A DNA stretch of 11,513 bases from an uncultured Eubacterium sp. GTDB lineage: Bacteria; Bacillota_A; Clostridia; Lachnospirales; Lachnospiraceae. Shown one piece after another: positions 2,938 through 11,513 of this stretch (positions within the stretch are counted from its first letter, which is position 1; the number at the start of each line of letters is the position of its first letter). The position numbers and the translations under genes were made by a program. The stretch is from positions 1 to 11,513 of the forward strand of contig CANTHI010000058.1 in NCBI GenBank assembly GCA_947653505.1. Direction: 5' to 3'. Under the pieces are notes generated by a model that saw nothing but the letters and a program-made list of their open reading frames with translations, was not told where the DNA came from and made no database searches.

Positions 2938-4416
2938 ATGTATCATGAAATAGATTTAGACAACATAGATATCAGTGCGGCTCCGCCCACAAAAGAGCCT
3001 GACCGCCAGCATTACTTTATGGCACAATGCCGGCGATGGGTACAGGAGTTTGGACAGAAATATGGCCGCCGCCCGTGTTTTTTTATTCAGACTTTTGGCT
3101 GTCAGATGAATGCCAGGGATTCGGAAAAGCTTGCCGGGATTTTAAAGCTTTGCGGATTTTTGGAGGCGACAGATGAGCAGGCGGACTTTGTCCTTTATAA
3201 TACGTGTACGGTCCGTGAACATGCCAATAACAGGGTGTATGGAAGACTTGGGTATCTCCACAACCTGAAAAAGAAAAATCCAAAGATGCGGATTGCGTTG
3301 TGCGGATGTATGATGCAGGAAGCCGCGGTTGTCGAAAAGTTAAAAAAGAGCTACCGGTTTGTGAATCTGGTGTTTGGCACACATAATCTTTATAAATTCG
3401 CGGAGCTTCTGGCGGAGTCTCTGAAAAAGGACAGCATGATCGTGGATATATGGGAACGGTCTGATCAGATTGTCGAAGAGCTTCCGTCCGAACGGAAATA
3501 TCCGTTCAAATCAGGGGTCAATATTATGTACGGCTGCAATAATTTTTGCAGCTATTGTATCGTGCCTTATGTGCGGGGCAGGGAAAAAAGCCGTGAGCCA
3601 AAGGATATTTTGCAGGAAATTGAACGGCTGGCTGCGGATGGGGTTATTGAAATCATGCTGCTTGGACAAAACGTCAATTCGTATGGGCAGACGCTGGAAC
3701 CGAAGGTGACTTTTGCGCAGCTGCTGCAGGAGGTGGAAAACATCGACGGCATTGAGCGCATCCGGTTTATGACTTCCCATCCGAAAGATTTGTCGGACGA
3801 GCTGATCTCGGTTATGGCGCATTCCAAAAAAATCTGCCGTCACCTGCATCTGCCGCTGCAGTCCGGAAGTACCCGCATCTTACAGGCCATGAACCGCCAT
3901 TACAGCAGGGAGACGTATGTAAGGCTGGTGGAAAAGGTGCGCGAAGCGATACCGGAGATTGCCATTACGACGGACATCATTGTAGGATTTCCGGGGGAGA
4001 CGGAGGAAGATTTTCAGGAAACGATGGAAGTGGCAGAGATGGCCGGATTTGATTCTGTGTTTACGTTTATTTACTCCAGACGCAGCGGGACGCCGGCAGC
4101 AGAATTGAGCGGGCAGGTGCCGGAGGAGGTCGTGAAGGAACGCTTTGACCGGCTGCTGAAAAAAGTGCAGGAGATTACGGCAAAGAAAGCGGAGCAGCTG
4201 ACGGGCAGTATCCAGAAGGTGCTTGTGGAAGGCGTCAATGATCATGACCCGACGCTTGTCACCGGAAAACTGGATACGAACGCAACGGTTCATTTGAAAG
4301 GCACCGCACAGCTGACCGGAAAGATTGTGTCCGTACGGCTGGATGAGTGTCGTGGATTTTATTATTATGGTACGCAGGTAAACCGGACCAGTCAGGTAAA
4401 TCAGCTAAAAGCATGA
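2938..4416 (+). CDS. miaB: tRNA-2-methylthio-N6-dimethylallyladenosine synthase MiaB
   Basis: Radical-SAM methylthiotransferase that adds the 2-methylthio group to i6A37 of tRNAs reading UNN codons. Order: a short N-terminal extension (1-47); an UPF0004/MTTase domain whose auxiliary cluster cysteines are C55 (TFGCQMNARDS), C90 (NTCTVRE) and C124 (CGCMMQE); a radical-SAM domain with CNNFCSYC (C200, C204, C207); and a C-terminal TRAM domain (about 420-485) for RNA binding. TFGCQMNARDS and NTCTVREHANNR favour MiaB over MtaB or RimO. At 492 residues it exceeds the usual 440-475 because of the N-terminal extension, which I recall as typical of clostridial MiaB. The start is moderately sure: AAAGG abuts the ATG and the stronger GGGG stretch lies about 14 bases away. 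The 14-bp tandem repeat immediately upstream may affect expression. Confidence 0.95.
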   Translation: MYHEIDLDNIDISAAPPTKEPDRQHYFMAQCRRWVQEFGQKYGRRPCFFIQTFGCQMNARDSEKLAGILKLCGFLEATDEQADFVLYNTCTVREHANNRVYGRLGYLHNLKKKNPKMRIALCGCMMQEAAVVEKLKKSYRFVNLVFGTHNLYKFAELLAESLKKDSMIVDIWERSDQIVEELPSERKYPFKSGVNIMYGCNNFCSYCIVPYVRGREKSREPKDILQEIERLAADGVIEIMLLGQNVNSYGQTLEPKVTFAQLLQEVENIDGIERIRFMTSHPKDLSDELISVMAHSKKICRHLHLPLQSGSTRILQAMNRHYSRETYVRLVEKVREAIPEIAITTDIIVGFPGETEEDFQETMEVAEMAGFDSVFTFIYSRRSGTPAAELSGQVPEEVVKERFDRLLKKVQEITAKKAEQLTGSIQKVLVEGVNDHDPTLVTGKLDTNATVHLKGTAQLTGKIVSVRLDECRGFYYYGTQVNRTSQVNQLKA

Positions 4417-5329: not shown

Positions 5330-5428
5330 CGTGATCTTTAAGATAAAATAAGATAAAACAGGAAGTTTTTTGCATATGATCTTTAAGATAAAAAGAAAGG
5401 TTTTTGCAGCATGATATCTTATATAAAA
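5315..5428 (+). repeat. Three imperfect tandem copies spanning a gene end, spacer and the ruvA start
   Basis: The unit is roughly GGAAAGTTTTT, a short variable stretch, then GATCTTTAAGATAAAA. The 16-mer GATCTTTAAGATAAAA is exact at 5333-5348 and 5378-5393 (offset 45). A degenerate third copy, GATATCTTATATAAAA, is at 5413-5428 (offset 35). Each is preceded by a GGAAAG- or GAAAGG-like purine block and a T-run (5315-5325, 5361-5371, 5395-5405). Copy 1 contains the last codons and stop of the upstream gene; copy 3 contains the ruvA ribosome binding site and start codon. ATCTTtAAGAT is also a short inverted repeat. Confidence 0.75.
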
Positions 5429-6019
5429 GGAAAGCTGGCAGATATTCTGCCGGATAGTATTGTGATTGATGTGTCCGGTATCGGCTGGCAGGTGTTTGTG
5501 CCCGGACAGGTGCTGGACCATCTGCCTGCGATGGGTGAGCCGGTAAAAATACATACGTGGCTGCAGGTGCGGGAAGATGCGCTGACGCTGTTCGGTTTTC
5601 TGACAAAAGACGATCTGGGTGTTTTCAAGCTGCTGATCGGGGTAAGCGGCGTCGGACCGAAAAACGCGCTGGCCATCCTATCGGTGATGACTACGGATGA
5701 TCTGCGGTTTGCGATACTTGGGGATGATGCAAAAGCGATTGCGAAGACACCGGGTGTCGGGATCAAAACAGCCCAGCGTCTGATTCTGGAGTTAAAAGAT
5801 AAAATCAGTCTGGAGGACGCGTTTGAGCAGAAGATGGCGCATGTACAGGATGCGCAGACCGATGCCTCCGGCGCAAAAGCAGAAGCGGTGATGGCGCTGA
5901 CGGCGCTTGGCTATTCTCCCCAGGAGGCATGGAAAGCGCTGGGCGGCATTGAGGCTGCCGATGAAATGGAAGTCGAAGCGCTGTTAAAGCTGGCATTAAA
6001 AAATATGTCTATGATATAA
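5411..6019 (+). CDS. ruvA: Holliday junction branch migration complex subunit RuvA
   Basis: Tetrameric protein that binds Holliday junctions and loads RuvB rings for branch migration in recombinational repair. Domain I (1-62) is the OB fold beginning MISYIKGKL and including DVSGIGWQVFVP. Domain II carries two helix-hairpin-helix motifs, GVSGVGPKNALAIL and TPGVGIKTAQRLILELKDK. After a linker (about 137-155), domain III (about 156-202) has the RuvB-binding EAVMALTALGYSPQEAWKAL. The length of 202 residues is normal. GAAAGG (5395-5400) lies 10 bases before the ATG. It is followed by ruvB, the usual pair; ruvC is absent from the window, as expected in Firmicutes that use RecU. Both ends of the gene lie in small tandem duplications. 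Confidence 0.97.
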   Translation: MISYIKGKLADILPDSIVIDVSGIGWQVFVPGQVLDHLPAMGEPVKIHTWLQVREDALTLFGFLTKDDLGVFKLLIGVSGVGPKNALAILSVMTTDDLRFAILGDDAKAIAKTPGVGIKTAQRLILELKDKISLEDAFEQKMAHVQDAQTDASGAKAEAVMALTALGYSPQEAWKALGGIEAADEMEVEALLKLALKNMSMI

Positions 6020-6036: not shown

Positions 6037-6078
6037 ATAAGCAGTTATGGATTTTGCTTGGAAAGGCAGGTTCCCCAT

Positions 6079-7071
6079 ATGGAAAAACGGGTGATTTCCA
6101 CCCAGATTCAGGAAGAAGATCTTGTTGTGGAAAAAAGTCTCCGCCCGCAGACCTTAGATGAATATATCGGGCAGGAGAAGGCAAAACAGAATCTGAAAGT
6201 ATATATTGAAGCGGCAAAGCAGCGGGGGGAAGCGCTGGATCATGTTCTTTTTTTCGGCCCGCCGGGACTGGGCAAGACGACGTTATCCGGTATTATCGCA
6301 AATGAGATGGGTACGCATATGAAGATTACTTCCGGTCCTGCGATCGCAAAGCCGGGAGAGATGGCTGCGATTTTAAGCGGGCTGCAGGAAGGGGATATTT
6401 TATTTGTGGACGAAATCCACCGGCTGAACCGTCAGGTGGAAGAGGTATTATATCCGGCGATGGAAGATTACGCGATTGATATTATGATTGGAAAAGGTGC
6501 GACGGCACGCTCGATTCGTCTGGACCTGCCGCATTTTACGCTGGTAGGCGCGACAACGAGAGCCGGACTGCTGTCGGCGCCGCTGCGTGACCGGTTCGGA
6601 GTGATTCACCATCTGGAATTTTATACGGTAGACGAGCTGCGGACGATTATCCGGCATTCCGCCGCAAAGCTGGAGGTAGAGATTGATCCGGAGGGCGCCT
6701 ATGAACTGGCGCGCCGTTCCAGAGGCACGCCGCGTCTGGCAAACCGGCTGTTAAAACGGGTCAGGGATTTTGCGCAGGTGAAATACGACGGGGAGATTAC
6801 AAAGGAAGTAGCGGCATTTTCCCTGGACCTGCTGGAAGTGGACAAAATGGGACTGGACCAGAACGACCGTACGATACTGCTGACGATTATCCAGAAGTTT
6901 GGCGGCGGCCCGGTCGGGCTTGACACGCTTGCGGCTGCCATCGGGGAGGATTCCGGCACGATCGAGGACGTTTACGAGCCTTTTTTAGTGCAGAACGGGC
7001 TGATCAGCCGCACACCCAAAGGCCGCGTGGCGACTGATTGTGCTTACCATCACTTTGGAATTGTAAAATAA
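6079..7071 (+). CDS. ruvB: Holliday junction branch migration DNA helicase RuvB
   Basis: AAA+ motor that, as hexamers flanking RuvA, drives branch migration using ATP. Walker A is GPPGLGKT (60-67), Walker B is VDEIH (D111, E112), sensor 1 is GATTRAG (157-163) and the arginine-finger region is LRDRFG (169-174). The lid domain has [18 protein letters not shown], and the C-terminal winged helix contains [36 protein letters not shown] and TPKGRVAT. The full length of 330 residues is normal. The frame could start at TTG 6058, but ATG 6079 matches the usual family N-terminus ([29 protein letters not shown] region). AAAGG (6062-6066) lies 12 bases upstream of ATG 6079, a slightly long spacing. It follows ruvA by 59 bases and probably shares its transcript. 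Confidence 0.97.
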
Positions 7072-7074
7072 TGG

Positions 7075-7103
7075 TTGTTTTTCCTGAAAGAACTCTGTAT
7101 AAT
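7075..7103 (+). promoter_or_regulatory. Sigma-A-type promoter of the ZapA-domain gene
   Basis: TTGTTT (7075-7080) and a perfect TATAAT (7098-7103) are separated by exactly 17 bases. The -35 begins 4 bases after the ruvB stop. The predicted start near 7109-7111 gives a leader of only about 15 bases, so the message would begin almost at the GGAGG (7112-7116). This suggests that the ZapA-domain gene, and perhaps the U32 gene, are transcribed independently of ruvAB. Confidence 0.7.
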
Positions 7104-7124: not shown

Positions 7125-9398
7125 ATGGCTGCTAAAAAAAGTACGGATGTAATGATTGCAGGGAAAGTATATACGTTAAGCGGTTATGAGGAAGAAGGAT
7201 ATCTGCAGCACGTTGCATCTTATATTAATACGAAGATTTCAGAGATTACAGAGCGTGATGAATACCGCAGGATTCCAAACGATATGAAGTCCATTCTGAT
7301 TCAGCTGAATATAGCAGATGATTTCTTTAAGGCAAAAAAACAGTTTGAGACTGCGGAGGAAAATTATAAAAAGGCAGAAAAAGACCTGTTTGAGTTAAAG
7401 CATGAGCTGGTAGATACCCAGATGAAGGTCGAGGAGCTGCTCGAAAAATTAAATCGGGAACGGCAGGAACGCAATCAGAAGTCCGGCCGTGAGAGCCAGC
7501 TGGAGGAAAGCTACAAGAGACTGGAAGAAAGATACCAGATGCTGGCAGGCAATGCAAAAGTGGCAGAGGAACGTAACCGCCAGTTTGAAGAAATGCTCCG
7601 CCTGACCCAGCAGGAGAAACGTGAAGTTGAAGCAGTCAACAAAGAACTGCGGCTGAATAAGGAAAAGCTGGAAGCGACGCTGGCAGACGCGCTGCTCGGC
7701 GCTGCGTCTTCTGCGACAGCGGGGGAGGACCGTACGCCGGCAGGAAAAAAAAATTCGGAAGCGAAAGGGCGTACAAAGCAGCGGATGCCCTTGACACAGG
7801 AGCCGGAAGAGCTTCTGACTCCTGTAGAGCTTCCAAAAGACGAGGTCATACAGCTGCGGGACGCGATTCAGGAGACAATGGCTGAGCTTGCCGGAGAGGC
7901 AGATTCCGTGGAAGATCATGCGCCATCTGGCATGGCAGCAGCAAAAGAGGATACTGTCGTAAAAACATCAGCAGCATCCGGAAAGGACAGCTTTTACAAA
8001 GATGCAGCAGCATCTGGCCGGAAAGGAGCCGCTGATGAGAACGCTGTAGTTACCGGAAAAGGGCCTGTGGGGGATGCCGGGGCATCTGAGCTGGAAAGAC
8101 TGGAAACAGCAGGTACTGAAACGAATGATGCTGGATCAGCGGGTACTGGAACGAATGATTTTGGAATAGGGGACACTGAAACGAATAGTTCCGGAACAGC
8201 GGATACTAAAACAAATGGTTCCGGAACAGCGGATACTGAAACGAATAGTTCCGGAGCAGTGGACACTGAGACGAATGGTTCTGGAACAGCTGGCTCTGGA
8301 ACAGAAGGTTCTGAAACAGCGGATTCTGGAACAGTGGACACTGAAACGAATGGTGAAACAACAGGCACTGAAATAAATGCTTCCGGTGCAGCGGGTTGTG
8401 GAACTAATGGTTCTGAGATAGCAGATACTGAAACAGAAGGCATGGAAACAGAAGATGCTGAAACGAAAGATATTGAAACAAAAAATGTTGAAATAAAAAA
8501 CATAGAAACAAAGGATATAGAAACAAAGGACATTGAAACAAAAAATATTGGAAAAGAAAGTTTCGCGCAGGGAGCTTTTCAGAATGCACACTCCCAGGCG
8601 GCAGACTCTGTAGAAAATACTATCCGGCCAGCCGGAGTGGAAACAAGCCAGACACCGGCAGCAACCGCCCCGGCAGCCGGAAATGTAAAGGGTTCTGAAA
8701 CAGCTGCAGATAATACTTTCCAAACGGCTGAAACTGCAAAGGATGCTGCTGCAACAGAAACCGAAGCTTCCCAAACCGTACAGGCAGAAGATGTGCCAGC
8801 AGCCGGAACAGAAACCGGAACTTCCAAAACCGCAGAGACCGGAGCAGGGGCTGCGTCTGCAGCGGCAGAAGACTCCCTACAGGATTCAGCCGCAGAATCA
8901 GAGCCGCAGACAGCTGCTTTTGAACAAAACACGGAACAATCAGAAAGCGGAGCTGCGCAGACAGCTAATCCGCAGGAAGAGTTTTCCGATACAGCGTTGG
9001 AGACTCCGGAGGAAGCTGACGGGCGGGAACCGGATCCGCTGCGGGGGCTGTTTGCTTCGTCGAAAAATTCCATTGTGCTGACGCCGGGACTTTCGGAGGA
9101 GGAGCTGGCAGAACTGCTGGGACCGATCAGGGAACCGCAGCGTACGATGCCGGAGCTTTCCAAAGAAGAGCTGGAGGAGCTGCTGGCGCCAGCGGCCAGA
9201 CATGAGCTTACGGATGAAGGCCCCGTGCCGGAGCCGGATGACGACGATGAATTTATCTCATCGGTGATGTCCGAGGTAGACGATGATGACGATCCGGAGA
9301 TCAAAGCGCTCGCAAAGCAGATCGCGGAGCTGGAGCGTCAGGAGCATGTGGAAAAGTATAAGAAAAAGTCAAAAAAAGGAAAAAAACGCAAGCGTTAA
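7125..9398 (+). CDS. zapA: ZapA-domain cell division protein with a very long repetitive disordered tail
   Basis: Residues 1 to about 95 match ZapA, which crosslinks FtsZ filaments at mid-cell: VMIAGKVYTLSGYEEEGYLQHVASYINTKI, then a helix with IQLNIADDFFKAK. Residues about 70-195 are a charged coiled coil (EELLEKLNRERQERNQ and similar), a common clostridial extension. From about 195 to the end the protein is low complexity. Residues 329-475 are about 29 tandem pentapeptides of pattern x-[DGNS]-x-[EG]-[TAI]; 480-640 are rich in A, T, E, S and Q; a 14-residue amphipathic motif occurs twice (654-667, 676-689); two Asp runs (DDDDEF and DDDDD) follow; and the last 14 residues hold 11 Lys/Arg. The total of 757 residues compares with about 90 for ordinary ZapA. 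GGAGG (7112-7116) is 8 bases before the ATG. No signal peptide or membrane helix is visible. FtsZ binding is inferred from the family; the tail's role is unknown. Confidence 0.85.
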   Translation: MAAKKSTDVMIAGKVYTLSGYEEEGYLQHVASYINTKISEITERDEYRRIPNDMKSILIQLNIADDFFKAKKQFETAEENYKKAEKDLFELKHELVDTQMKVEELLEKLNRERQERNQKSGRESQLEESYKRLEERYQMLAGNAKVAEERNRQFEEMLRLTQQEKREVEAVNKELRLNKEKLEATLADALLGAASSATAGEDRTPAGKKNSEAKGRTKQRMPLTQEPEELLTPVELPKDEVIQLRDAIQETMAELAGEADSVEDHAPSGMAAAKEDTVVKTSAASGKDSFYKDAAASGRKGAADENAVVTGKGPVGDAGASELERLETAGTETNDAGSAGTGTNDFGIGDTETNSSGTADTKTNGSGTADTETNSSGAVDTETNGSGTAGSGTEGSETADSGTVDTETNGETTGTEINASGAAGCGTNGSEIADTETEGMETEDAETKDIETKNVEIKNIETKDIETKDIETKNIGKESFAQGAFQNAHSQAADSVENTIRPAGVETSQTPAATAPAAGNVKGSETAADNTFQTAETAKDAAATETEASQTVQAEDVPAAGTETGTSKTAETGAGAASAAAEDSLQDSAAESEPQTAAFEQNTEQSESGAAQTANPQEEFSDTALETPEEADGREPDPLRGLFASSKNSIVLTPGLSEEELAELLGPIREPQRTMPELSKEELEELLAPAARHELTDEGPVPEPDDDDEFISSVMSEVDDDDDPEIKALAKQIAELERQEHVEKYKKKSKKGKKRKR
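8109..8549 (+). repeat. In-frame 15-bp (30-bp higher-order) minisatellite in the ZapA-domain gene
   Basis: It encodes about 29 pentapeptides (residues 329-475) such as ADTET/NSSGT in the first two thirds and KDIET/KNIET in the last third. A 30-bp higher-order unit is clearest at 8188-8207 and 8218-8237, which share an exact 20-mer (GTTCCGGAACAGCGGATACT) at offset 30. One unit is four residues long (NGET), about residues 409-412. Every other unit is a multiple of three bases, so changes in copy number keep the frame. Confidence 0.92.
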
Positions 9399-9413: not shown

Positions 9414-9452
9414 AGAAAAAGGGGATGGAGCCAATCTGTCCCTATTTTGATT
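9414..9452 (+). terminator. Weak terminator-like imperfect hairpin after the ZapA-domain gene
   Basis: GAAAAAGGGGA (9415-9425) faces TCCCTATTTT (9439-9448). GGGA/TCCC and AAAA/TTTT can pair around a mismatch and a G-T pair, with a 13-base loop. The U-rich stretch is the 3' arm itself rather than a clean U-tail, so efficiency would be low. It is the only candidate in the 128-base spacer before the U32 gene. Confidence 0.25.
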
Positions 9453-9526: not shown

Positions 9527-11513
9527 ATGGCAGATAACACTTCAAAACAAAAAGAGCCTGGGCTGATGGCTTTAAAAGGTTCTGAAAAAGCCCCAGAGCT
9601 GCTGGCGCCTGCAGGTTCTCCTGAGATCTGCAGGGCGGTGATTGCAGCAGGCGCGGATGCGGTATATGCTGGCGGCAGCCAGTTTGGCGCAAGGGCATAT
9701 GCAAAAAATTTTACACAGGAAGAGCTGCTGGGGGCGATTGATCTGGTGCATATGCATGGAAAAAAGCTGTATTTAACCGTGAATACGCTGTTAAAGCAGT
9801 CAGAGATCAGTGGTTTATATGAGTATCTGCTGCCGTATTATCTGCAGGGACTCGATGCGGTGATTGTACAGGATTTTGGTGTGATGCGGCTGATTCAGGA
9901 CTGGTTTGCAGATCTGCCGGTGCATGTCAGCACGCAGATGTCGGTTGCCAGTGCATATGGTTTCTCTTATTTGCAAAGACTTGGAGTGTCGCGGATTGTA
10001 CCAGCCAGAGAGCTTTCGCTGGAAGAAATACAGACGATTCGCAGCCAGACAGACCTTGAGATCGAATGCTTTGTACACGGGGCACTCTGCTACTGCTATT
10101 CCGGACAGTGTCTGCTCAGCAGTATGCTTGGCGGCAGGAGCGGCAATCGCGGACGCTGCGCACAGCCGTGCCGCCTGCCTTATACGGTGCTGGACGCTGA
10201 AAAAAATCCGGTTGAAAAAAACGGTTATCCGCTCAGTCCGAAAGACTTATGTACGATTGACCAGATTCCGCAGCTGATTCAGGCTGGCATTACTTCGTTT
10301 AAAATCGAAGGCCGGATGAAATCAGCCGGATATGCCGCTGGTGTTACGGCAGTCTATCGTCGTTATATCGACCAGTATCTGGAAAAAGGTATGGTAAACG
10401 TGAGTCCTCAGGACTATGAACGTCTGCTGCAGACCGGAAACCGGAGCGGATTTACCGACGGCTATTATACAAAGCATAATGGTCCGCAGATGATCGCAAA
10501 AAACCGCCCGGGCTATGAAAAAAGTGAGCTGGCAGATACAGGGCTTTTTCCGGAAAAAAAGATCCCCGTACAGGCCGCGGCCAGCCTGCACACAGGTGAA
10601 CCGGCAGAGCTTACGGTGTCTGCAGGCGGACATAGCGTATGTGTCCGGTACGGGCTTGTACAGGCCGCAAAAAAGCAGCCGCTGGACAGGGATACGGTTC
10701 TGACGCAGCTGTCTAAAACCGGAAATACGCCGTTTGAAATAGAACAGATAACCATACAGATGCAGGACAAAGTATTTCTGCCAAAACAGATGCTTAACCA
10801 GCTCCGCCGCGAGGCGCTGGAGCAGCTGGAAACACAGATGCTGAAAAAATGCCGCAGAACGGCACCAGTTCCGGTACCGGCCAGCCCGTGCCAGCAGATG
10901 GATATCCAGAGCGGTTTTTCCGGTACAGAGCCTTATTTTACCGCCGTAGTGGAAGAGGAAGCGCAGCTTGACGCCGTACTGGAGCAGGATTTTATAAGCC
11001 GCGTTTATCTGGACGGTCAGATATACAGACATGCGCATGTTCCCGCACAATTAAAAGAACATGCCGGCCGTGTTCATGCAGCGGGCAAACAGGCATATCT
11101 CGTACTGCCTCCGGTGTTCCGCAGCCGGACGGCTCAGTTCTATGCGAAACATTGGACAGAGATTTGCAGTATCGTGGACGGTTATCTGGTCAGAACGATG
11201 GACGAGCTGGGATTTTTGCAACAGATGCACACAGACCAGCGGCGCTGCACACTGGATCACAGCCTGTATACGTATTCGGATGAGGCAAAAGCAGGCTTTT
11301 ACCGTCTGGGATGGAGCTATGATACCATTCCGCTGGAACTGAATAAAAAAGAGCTGCGGGCACGGAACAATGAGACAGGCGAGCTGATTATTTACGGTTA
11401 TCTGCCGTTAATGACAAGCGCTCAGTGCATTGCAAAGACGATCGGACGCTGTACCGGCACAAACGGAATGTACTATTTAAAAGACCGTTATGCGAAGGAA
11501 TTTGCAGTGCGCC
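9527..11513 (+). CDS. U32 family protein (RlhA/TrhP-type RNA hydroxylation), 3' end outside window
   Basis: The first 662 codons are open and run off the window. The U32 signature ECFVHGALCYCYSGQCLLSS lies at 180-199, followed by C211 and C215 in CAQPCR; these cysteines are candidates for an iron-sulfur site. The N-terminal half begins PELLAPAGS, with DAVYAGG and VSTQMSV as in other U32 proteins. After SFKIEGRMKS (about 264-273), a longer C-terminal part fits the DUF3656-containing U32 proteins related to E. coli RlhA (YdcP). Proteins so annotated as 'peptidases' include RlhA, which hydroxylates a 23S rRNA cytidine, and TrhP, which makes 5-hydroxyuridine in tRNA, so RNA hydroxylation is likelier than proteolysis. 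The exact substrate cannot be told from the sequence. ATG 9527 is chosen because AAAAGGA (9514-9520) is 6 bases upstream; an internal ATG at 9566 lacks such a site. Confidence 0.88.
   Translation, partial: MADNTSKQKEPGLMALKGSEKAPELLAPAGSPEICRAVIAAGADAVYAGGSQFGARAYAKNFTQEELLGAIDLVHMHGKKLYLTVNTLLKQSEISGLYEYLLPYYLQGLDAVIVQDFGVMRLIQDWFADLPVHVSTQMSVASAYGFSYLQRLGVSRIVPARELSLEEIQTIRSQTDLEIECFVHGALCYCYSGQCLLSSMLGGRSGNRGRCAQPCRLPYTVLDAEKNPVEKNGYPLSPKDLCTIDQIPQLIQAGITSFKIEGRMKSAGYAAGVTAVYRRYIDQYLEKGMVNVSPQDYERLLQTGNRSGFTDGYYTKHNGPQMIAKNRPGYEKSELADTGLFPEKKIPVQAAASLHTGEPAELTVSAGGHSVCVRYGLVQAAKKQPLDRDTVLTQLSKTGNTPFEIEQITIQMQDKVFLPKQMLNQLRREALEQLETQMLKKCRRTAPVPVPASPCQQMDIQSGFSGTEPYFTAVVEEEAQLDAVLEQDFISRVYLDGQIYRHAHVPAQLKEHAGRVHAAGKQAYLVLPPVFRSRTAQFYAKHWTEICSIVDGYLVRTMDELGFLQQMHTDQRRCTLDHSLYTYSDEAKAGFYRLGWSYDTIPLELNKKELRARNNETGELIIYGYLPLMTSAQCIAKTIGRCTGTNGMYYLKDRYAKEFAVR

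Follow-up and report, generated by a model that had tools for sequence, protein, structure and literature searches.

Can ZapA, usually treated as a small, interchangeable staple of FtsZ, carry a disordered tail of several hundred residues, and what would such a tail do? The question is raised by a stretch of 11,513 nucleotides (contig CANTHI010000058.1 of assembly GCA_947653505.1; hereafter the window) from an uncultured Eubacterium sp. of the Lachnospiraceae, in which a zapA gene encodes 757 residues. An annotation made from the sequence alone (the original prediction) had described a normal ZapA head and coiled coil followed, in one uninterrupted frame, by a very long low-complexity tail. 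We find that the islands and the conserved C-terminal block within this tail, which the original prediction did not see, are its main feature.

The ZapA head and the open frame

By its Pfam profile and its predicted fold, the window protein is a ZapA. PF05164 (Pfam ZapA) matches residues 8-97 with an E-value of 1.4e-18, and its 67.4 bits pass the gathering score of 23.8; the profile search that the original prediction had named as a way of showing that the N-terminus is not ZapA thus bore out the ZapA head, as did the fold matches. The NCBIfam equivalog PRK14126 gave 30.5 bits against a cut-off of 80, in a comparison made without ordinary clostridial ZapAs as control, and the protein is therefore not filed under that equivalog. 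AlphaFold2 models, made as monomers for head plus coil and for the full length, predict for the former two strands, one helix and then a single helix of 145 residues, at a mean predicted local distance difference test score (pLDDT) of 89.8. A Foldseek search with this model returned 3hnw and 2mmv at E < 0.001 with other ZapAs next, and in a fold comparison the full-length model aligns with 1t3u, 1w2e, 3hnw, 4p1m and the FtsZ-bound ZapA 9isk. The predicted protein thus shares its head fold with solved ZapAs and continues into a helix; its length lies outside the usual ZapA size (about 90-150 residues), which is usual and not defining. The predicted coiled coil is present, but it is not quite normal, as its 145-residue helix exceeds whole chains of solved ZapAs (86-138 residues).

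The open reading frame starts with ATG and has no internal stop. Of 2000 copies of the 562-codon tail generated by a first-order Markov model, none was open (22.6 stops expected), and the other two forward frames hold 16 and 37 stops. The frame is also open in four other genomes (L001, L002, L003 and L004, with 759, 673, 824 and 620 residues, respectively), and a search of 5.8 billion proteins found 13 clusters of 420-733 residues with the same layout. A chance open frame is ruled out by the Markov copies and by the full-length copies in other genomes, so that the uninterrupted frame with its long tail stands as originally described. In Eubacterium plexicaudatum ASF492 (L007, 6001-7693) zapA stops at 217 residues and the tail goes on in other frames; the neighbours miaB, ruvA, ruvB and the U32 peptidase gene each align in a single frame there (tblastn). 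This break reflects either a misassembly of the repeats or true loss of the tail. On the minus strand of the window, opposite the low-complexity tail, lies a serine-rich open frame of 241 codons (8579-9304) that is probably a shadow of the coding-strand composition.

Anatomy, conservation and distribution of the tail

In the full-length model 453 of the 757 residues have a pLDDT below 50, and the tail of about 560 residues is mostly without predicted fold. The structure prediction proposed for the product accordingly gave a head and helix, and added folded islands: order is predicted in the tail only at residues 238-258, 658-665, 680-687, 713-717 and 724-756, and these are the stretches that relatives keep. 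Models and alignments together indicate that the tail is not uniform, and that it consists of a variable linker, helical islands and a conserved C-terminal block (Table 1).

Table 1. Features of the zapA locus, with positions in the window.
Feature	Position	Strand	Basis or remark
zapA, whole gene	7125..9398	+	757 codons + stop; same architecture in L001-L004 and others
ZapA domain, residues 8-97 (head and start of long helix)	7146..7415	+	PF05164; structure matches 3hnw, 2mmv, 1w2e, 4p1m, 9isk
Long helix, residues 52-195, predicted coiled coil with conserved end ...LADALLG	7278..7709	+	AlphaFold2 pLDDT mostly 82-97; alignment
Hypervariable acidic linker, residues 197-654 except island 2	7713..9086	+	unalignable; pLDDT mostly < 50
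Island 2, predicted helix, residues 238-258	7836..7898	+	AlphaFold2
30-bp tandem array (10-residue units) in linker	8105..8332	+	tandem-repeat scan
30/15-bp tandem array (5- and 10-residue units) in linker	8423..8547	+	tandem-repeat scan
Island 3, two copies of LS-x-EEL-x-ELL-x-P, residues 655-691	9087..9197	+	weak helices in AlphaFold2
C-terminal block, residues 709-757: acidic stretch, helix 724-756, lysine-rich end	9249..9395	+	conserved; pLDDT 77-93 in last 50 residues
Promoter-like site TTGTTT-17-TATAAT, between ruvB and zapA	7075..7103	+	conservation
Terminator-like hairpin after zapA	9421..9443	+	hairpin scan
miaB	2938-4416		profile match
ruvA	5411..6019	+	TIGR00084, 212.8 bits
ruvB, upstream neighbour	6058..7071	+	profile match
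U32 peptidase family protein, downstream neighbour	9527..11512	+	PF01136; runs off window

In ten pairs of five genomes, identity is 97-100% in the head, 82-96% in the coil and 74-90% in the C-terminal block; the linker ranges from 319 to 529 residues across the five. For the block, the ratio of nonsynonymous to synonymous substitution rates (dN/dS) is 0.06-0.08 in seven of the ten pairs, the other three being saturated at synonymous sites; these ratios are rough, as synonymous change is high in all pairs. Seven columns of the block are invariant across 14 sequences, and in tblastn comparisons with ASF492 identity is 82% for the block and 69% for the U32 neighbour. Judged from these alignments, the C-terminal block is under purifying selection.

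In the window, the repeat units of the linker are multiples of three bases, and the repeats are rich in threonine. A stretch related to island 2 (LS-K-EEV...LR...ETMAEL) was recognized by eye in 11 of 16 long alignment rows, in some of them at another position, and the LS-x-EEL-x-ELL-x-P motif of island 3 (hereafter LS-EEL) occurs in 16 of 18 long proteins with one to five copies each. All 18 keep an acidic tail (net charge -34 to -84) that is poor in aromatic residues (1-19 F/W/Y per tail), and their last 20 residues carry a net charge of +4 to +10. When the full model was compared with known folds, the tail islands matched unrelated chains at low Z only, a result that excludes nothing. In one protein (P0007, around residues 330-390) the C-terminal block is directly preceded by a second copy of its own first half (SS-x-L-K-EVS-x-x-DDPELLE), as if this half were a separable motif.

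By genus we mean the grouping around E. plexicaudatum in the genome collection used (13 genomes). Each of the 13 has exactly one ZapA match; ten copies are complete, with 364-824 residues, two reach a contig end (L081, 608 residues; L073, 405 residues) and that of ASF492 is broken. In the family sample ZapA was matched in 367 of 397 genomes, with a median open frame of 149 residues among the 150 family matches listed and a maximum outside the genus of 299 residues among 147 matches listed. Three genomes of this sample (G154, G310 and G362) have two ZapA matches each, as has G523 of the order sample, where the two lie close together on one strand (contig C40, 13503-14397).

The order sample gave 122 rows from 121 genomes, and 24 rows had an open frame of at least 250 residues. 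Twenty of the 24 were read (G450, G479, G489 and G411 being left out), and one of these, G471, was dropped as a false match inside a peptidase. In 17 of the 19 long ZapAs found elsewhere in the order (L084-L102, 237-514 residues), proline and glycine together make up no more than 3.9% of the extension, which points to mostly coiled coil and not to disorder; L099 and L100, with 8-9%, fit that label poorly. By eye, the conserved C-terminal block was not seen in any of these 19 proteins. The idea of a single kind of long ZapA throughout the order was rejected, the extensions outside the genus being mostly coiled coil. The search for long ZapAs among relatives, as the original prediction had proposed, thus found the disordered form in the genus, but not a unique length. 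From these sequences ZapA lengthening is recurrent in the order, and the disordered form with a conserved end was seen in the genus only. Three shorter proteins (L074, L075 and L077, with 287, 200 and 227 residues) each carry a short tail of low complexity whose end is basic, and in the short form L076 (173 residues) the end of the coil resembles that of the genus; all four look like intermediate steps toward the genus form.

The tail as a proposed tether, and the alternatives

E. coli ZapA is described as a tetramer shaped like a dog bone, with heads that attach to FtsZ and bridge its filaments (PMC6213154; PMC12754632). FtsZ is found in 13/13 genomes of the genus and begins with LEITTTE, the candidate ZapA-binding motif, in all of them; the leucine in place of the phenylalanine at position 2 of E. 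coli FtsZ presumably still binds ZapA. The head fold, the presence of FtsZ and this conserved N-terminus make a ZapA-like role in the genus likely. Compared for a basic charge that might match the acidic ZapA tail, the last 28 residues of FtsZ carry a mean charge of +4.8 in the 13 genus members vs. +3.1 in 26 others (one of 27, missing the anchor motif, was dropped), where the genus, as one clade, counts as one event; the net charge of the whole FtsZ tail is 6.2 vs. 6.0.

Among other division proteins of the genus, SepF is present in 13/13 genomes. The FtsA model exceeds its cut-off in none of the 13, with weaker matches in all, and the best match in each lies inside an open frame of 853-1367 residues. 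In the one genus genome looked at closely (L148, 817-4122), an FtsA-like actin-fold domain (TIGR01174, 88 bits vs. a cut-off of 175.85) shares one frame with a dephospho-CoA kinase. Matches to EzrA were weak in 9/13 genomes, with one over cut-off only through summed pieces, and were not used. In C. difficile, which is without ftsA, sepF and zapA are reported to be essential (PMC12548448), a sign that bacteria of this kind can depend more heavily on ZapA. ZapA of C. difficile is also reported to be phosphorylated (PMC8730811).

The observed anatomy of ZapA head, long helix, free acidic linker and conserved short end elements suggests an arm. Two conserved ends joined by a free linker are tether-like, and we therefore regard the tail as an arm that would dock through its end. 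We give about an even chance to the reading that the sole ZapA of the genus is a long-armed cross-linker of the Z-ring, with acidic tethers whose ends bind a partner. The head would bind FtsZ filaments and the helices would form dimers or antiparallel tetramers, as in known ZapAs, and from each subunit the tail would extend as a flexible arm. The conserved C-terminal block, and probably also the LS-EEL motifs, would then dock on one or more partners, which may be a divisome protein, the membrane or the nucleoid. With a reach of tens of nanometres, such an arm could concentrate partners about the ring, akin to the way in which the disordered linker of FtsZ presents its C-terminal peptide. A more tentative extension, possible but not one we would bet on, is that this ZapA is a one-protein adaptor, in which FtsZ cross-linker, long disordered tether and conserved docking end would take the place of separate proteins used elsewhere, either by linking to the chromosome in the manner of ZapB and MatP or by serving as an additional anchor to membrane or divisome, given that no FtsA passes the cut-off of the standard model.

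Several observations weigh against the tether. No partner was found. In 299 family genomes the C-terminal block matched only two, both genus members, with no other match at E 0.001. Two of the 18 long proteins lack the LS-EEL motif, and the lysine-rich end is missing from L082 and L072. In two members of the genus, L082 and L073, it is the coil and not the linker that became longer; both keep the LS-EEL motif, and L082 keeps the C-terminal helix, before which the contig of L073 ends. The C-terminal helix is not clearly amphipathic, as 131 of 2000 shuffles were as good for the window protein and 59-266 for three relatives. The broken frame in ASF492 means that the tail may be dispensable, or that the assembly is wrong.

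The original prediction had offered an entropic bristle, a scaffold or a condensate-forming segment. As a bristle or spacer, the acidic tail would hold bundled FtsZ filaments apart or exclude molecules, its ends merely stopping aggregation or degradation. An acidic, weakly hydrophobic, aromatic-poor tail that is free in sequence suits this role, but a pure bristle needs no conserved C-terminal block, and the low dN/dS and confidently predicted helix of that block make the idea unlikely; because of the helical islands and the selected block we favour a tether or scaffold. Neutral expansion, in which in-frame repeats grow and shrink in a tolerant linker and length has no use, is improbable too. 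It would account for the unconserved linker length, for the broken frame in ASF492 and for the variation in repeat copy number among near-identical proteins (P0003, P0004 and P0005, with 574, 562 and 550 residues), but not for a minimum of 364 residues in 10/10 complete genus copies, the maintained acidic charge or the purifying selection on the far end.

A condensate former, with the tail causing ZapA and FtsZ to phase-separate where the cell divides, is doubtful. E. coli ZapA is reported to enter FtsZ-SlmA condensates under crowding, although in the same report it favoured FtsZ polymers (PMC9974302). An acidic linker beside a lysine-rich end could attract like molecules, but the high net negative charge and few aromatics argue against self-driven separation, and for this reason a condensate is not favoured. 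Slightly more doubtful still is a membrane or nucleoid anchor, whose C-terminal helix and lysine-rich end would bind anionic lipid or DNA and so compensate for the missing standard FtsA, or do alone the job that ZapB and MatP share with ZapA in E. coli. The basic last 20 residues of the long proteins, the sub-threshold FtsA matches and the essential sepF and zapA of C. difficile are consistent with an anchor, but the helix is weakly amphipathic, the basic end is absent from two genus members, a divergent FtsA-like protein is present, and SepF, the usual other anchor, occurs throughout the genus. That two genes were fused through assembly or sequencing error has a negligible chance, since the several frames of ASF492 stand against an open fused architecture in L001-L004 and others, the 13 protein clusters and purifying selection on the far end in the same frame.

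Genomic setting and known systems

The original prediction gave zapA its own promoter. The promoter-like site (Table 1) occurs in 8/13 upstream regions of the genus (the window included) vs. 2/12 outside it and was also seen in ASF492, but a consensus promoter scan of the window did not list it, reporting three sites where 3.4 were expected. A hairpin downstream of zapA was found in 6/13 genus regions (in two of the 13 the sequence ended before this point) vs. 0/12 outside. Both counts come from regular expressions run on related sequences. They favour a separate transcript without proving it, and zapA is perhaps transcribed from its own promoter.

The order ruvA-ruvB-zapA-U32 is the same in 8/8 loci compared (L001-L004, L007, L078, L080 and L083). 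For two proteins (P0015 and P0016) the precomputed Pfam domains combine ZapA with one of its genome neighbours, RuvB or U32; these are either real fusions or missed stops. The window also encodes a NusG domain II protein, a heptaprenyl diphosphate synthase component I-like protein and a PAS-GGDEF-EAL protein (208-1905), likely a cyclic-di-GMP enzyme. Five copies of the 14-bp unit TATGCTATAGAAAG lie between the formyltetrahydrofolate cyclo-ligase gene and miaB (2851-2920), and a 35-bp unit in 2.5 copies lies ahead of and across the ruvA start (5349-5434). Rfam gave no match in the window.

Like the ZapAs of E. coli (4p1m), P. aeruginosa (1t3u/1w2e) and G. stearothermophilus (2mmv), the window protein has the PF05164 head fold, the start of the coiled coil and one copy per genome. 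In contrast to these chains of 86-107 residues, it has a predicted helix of 145 residues and a tail of ~560. The closest solved relative is 3hnw, a "basic coiled-coil protein of unknown function" from Eubacterium eligens (40% identity over 120 columns, TM-score 0.84 by target length); both this protein and ordinary Lachnospiraceae ZapAs (114-179 residues, 23 loci: L005, L006 and L008-L028) are without the tail. The lengthened ZapAs L084-L102 share the head and a long extension, but theirs is mostly coiled coil. In clostridia the length of ZapA is freer to evolve than the protein's name would imply, the gain having come from coiled coil in several lineages and from disorder in the genus of E. 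plexicaudatum. In the open-licence PMC literature searched, a scope mostly outside subscription papers, we found no ZapA with a long disordered tail, in agreement with the original prediction, which knew of none. A ZapA several times larger throughout one genus, whose linker is free and whose end is conserved, would serve as a natural test of the effect of long disordered arms in the Z-ring.

A possible functional parallel is the ZapB-MatP layer of E. coli, described as linking ZapA to another structure (PMC6213154), although ZapB and MatP are separate proteins there and nothing here shows nucleoid binding by the genus ZapA. The other parallel lies in FtsZ, whose C-terminal linker and peptide comprise 92-108 residues in the genus. 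The linker of the giant ZapA is not homologous to that of FtsZ, and it is acidic and several times longer. The likeness is one of working layout, with a variable disordered linker between two conserved ends, that is, a folded head and a short conserved end, which in FtsZ is a binding end.
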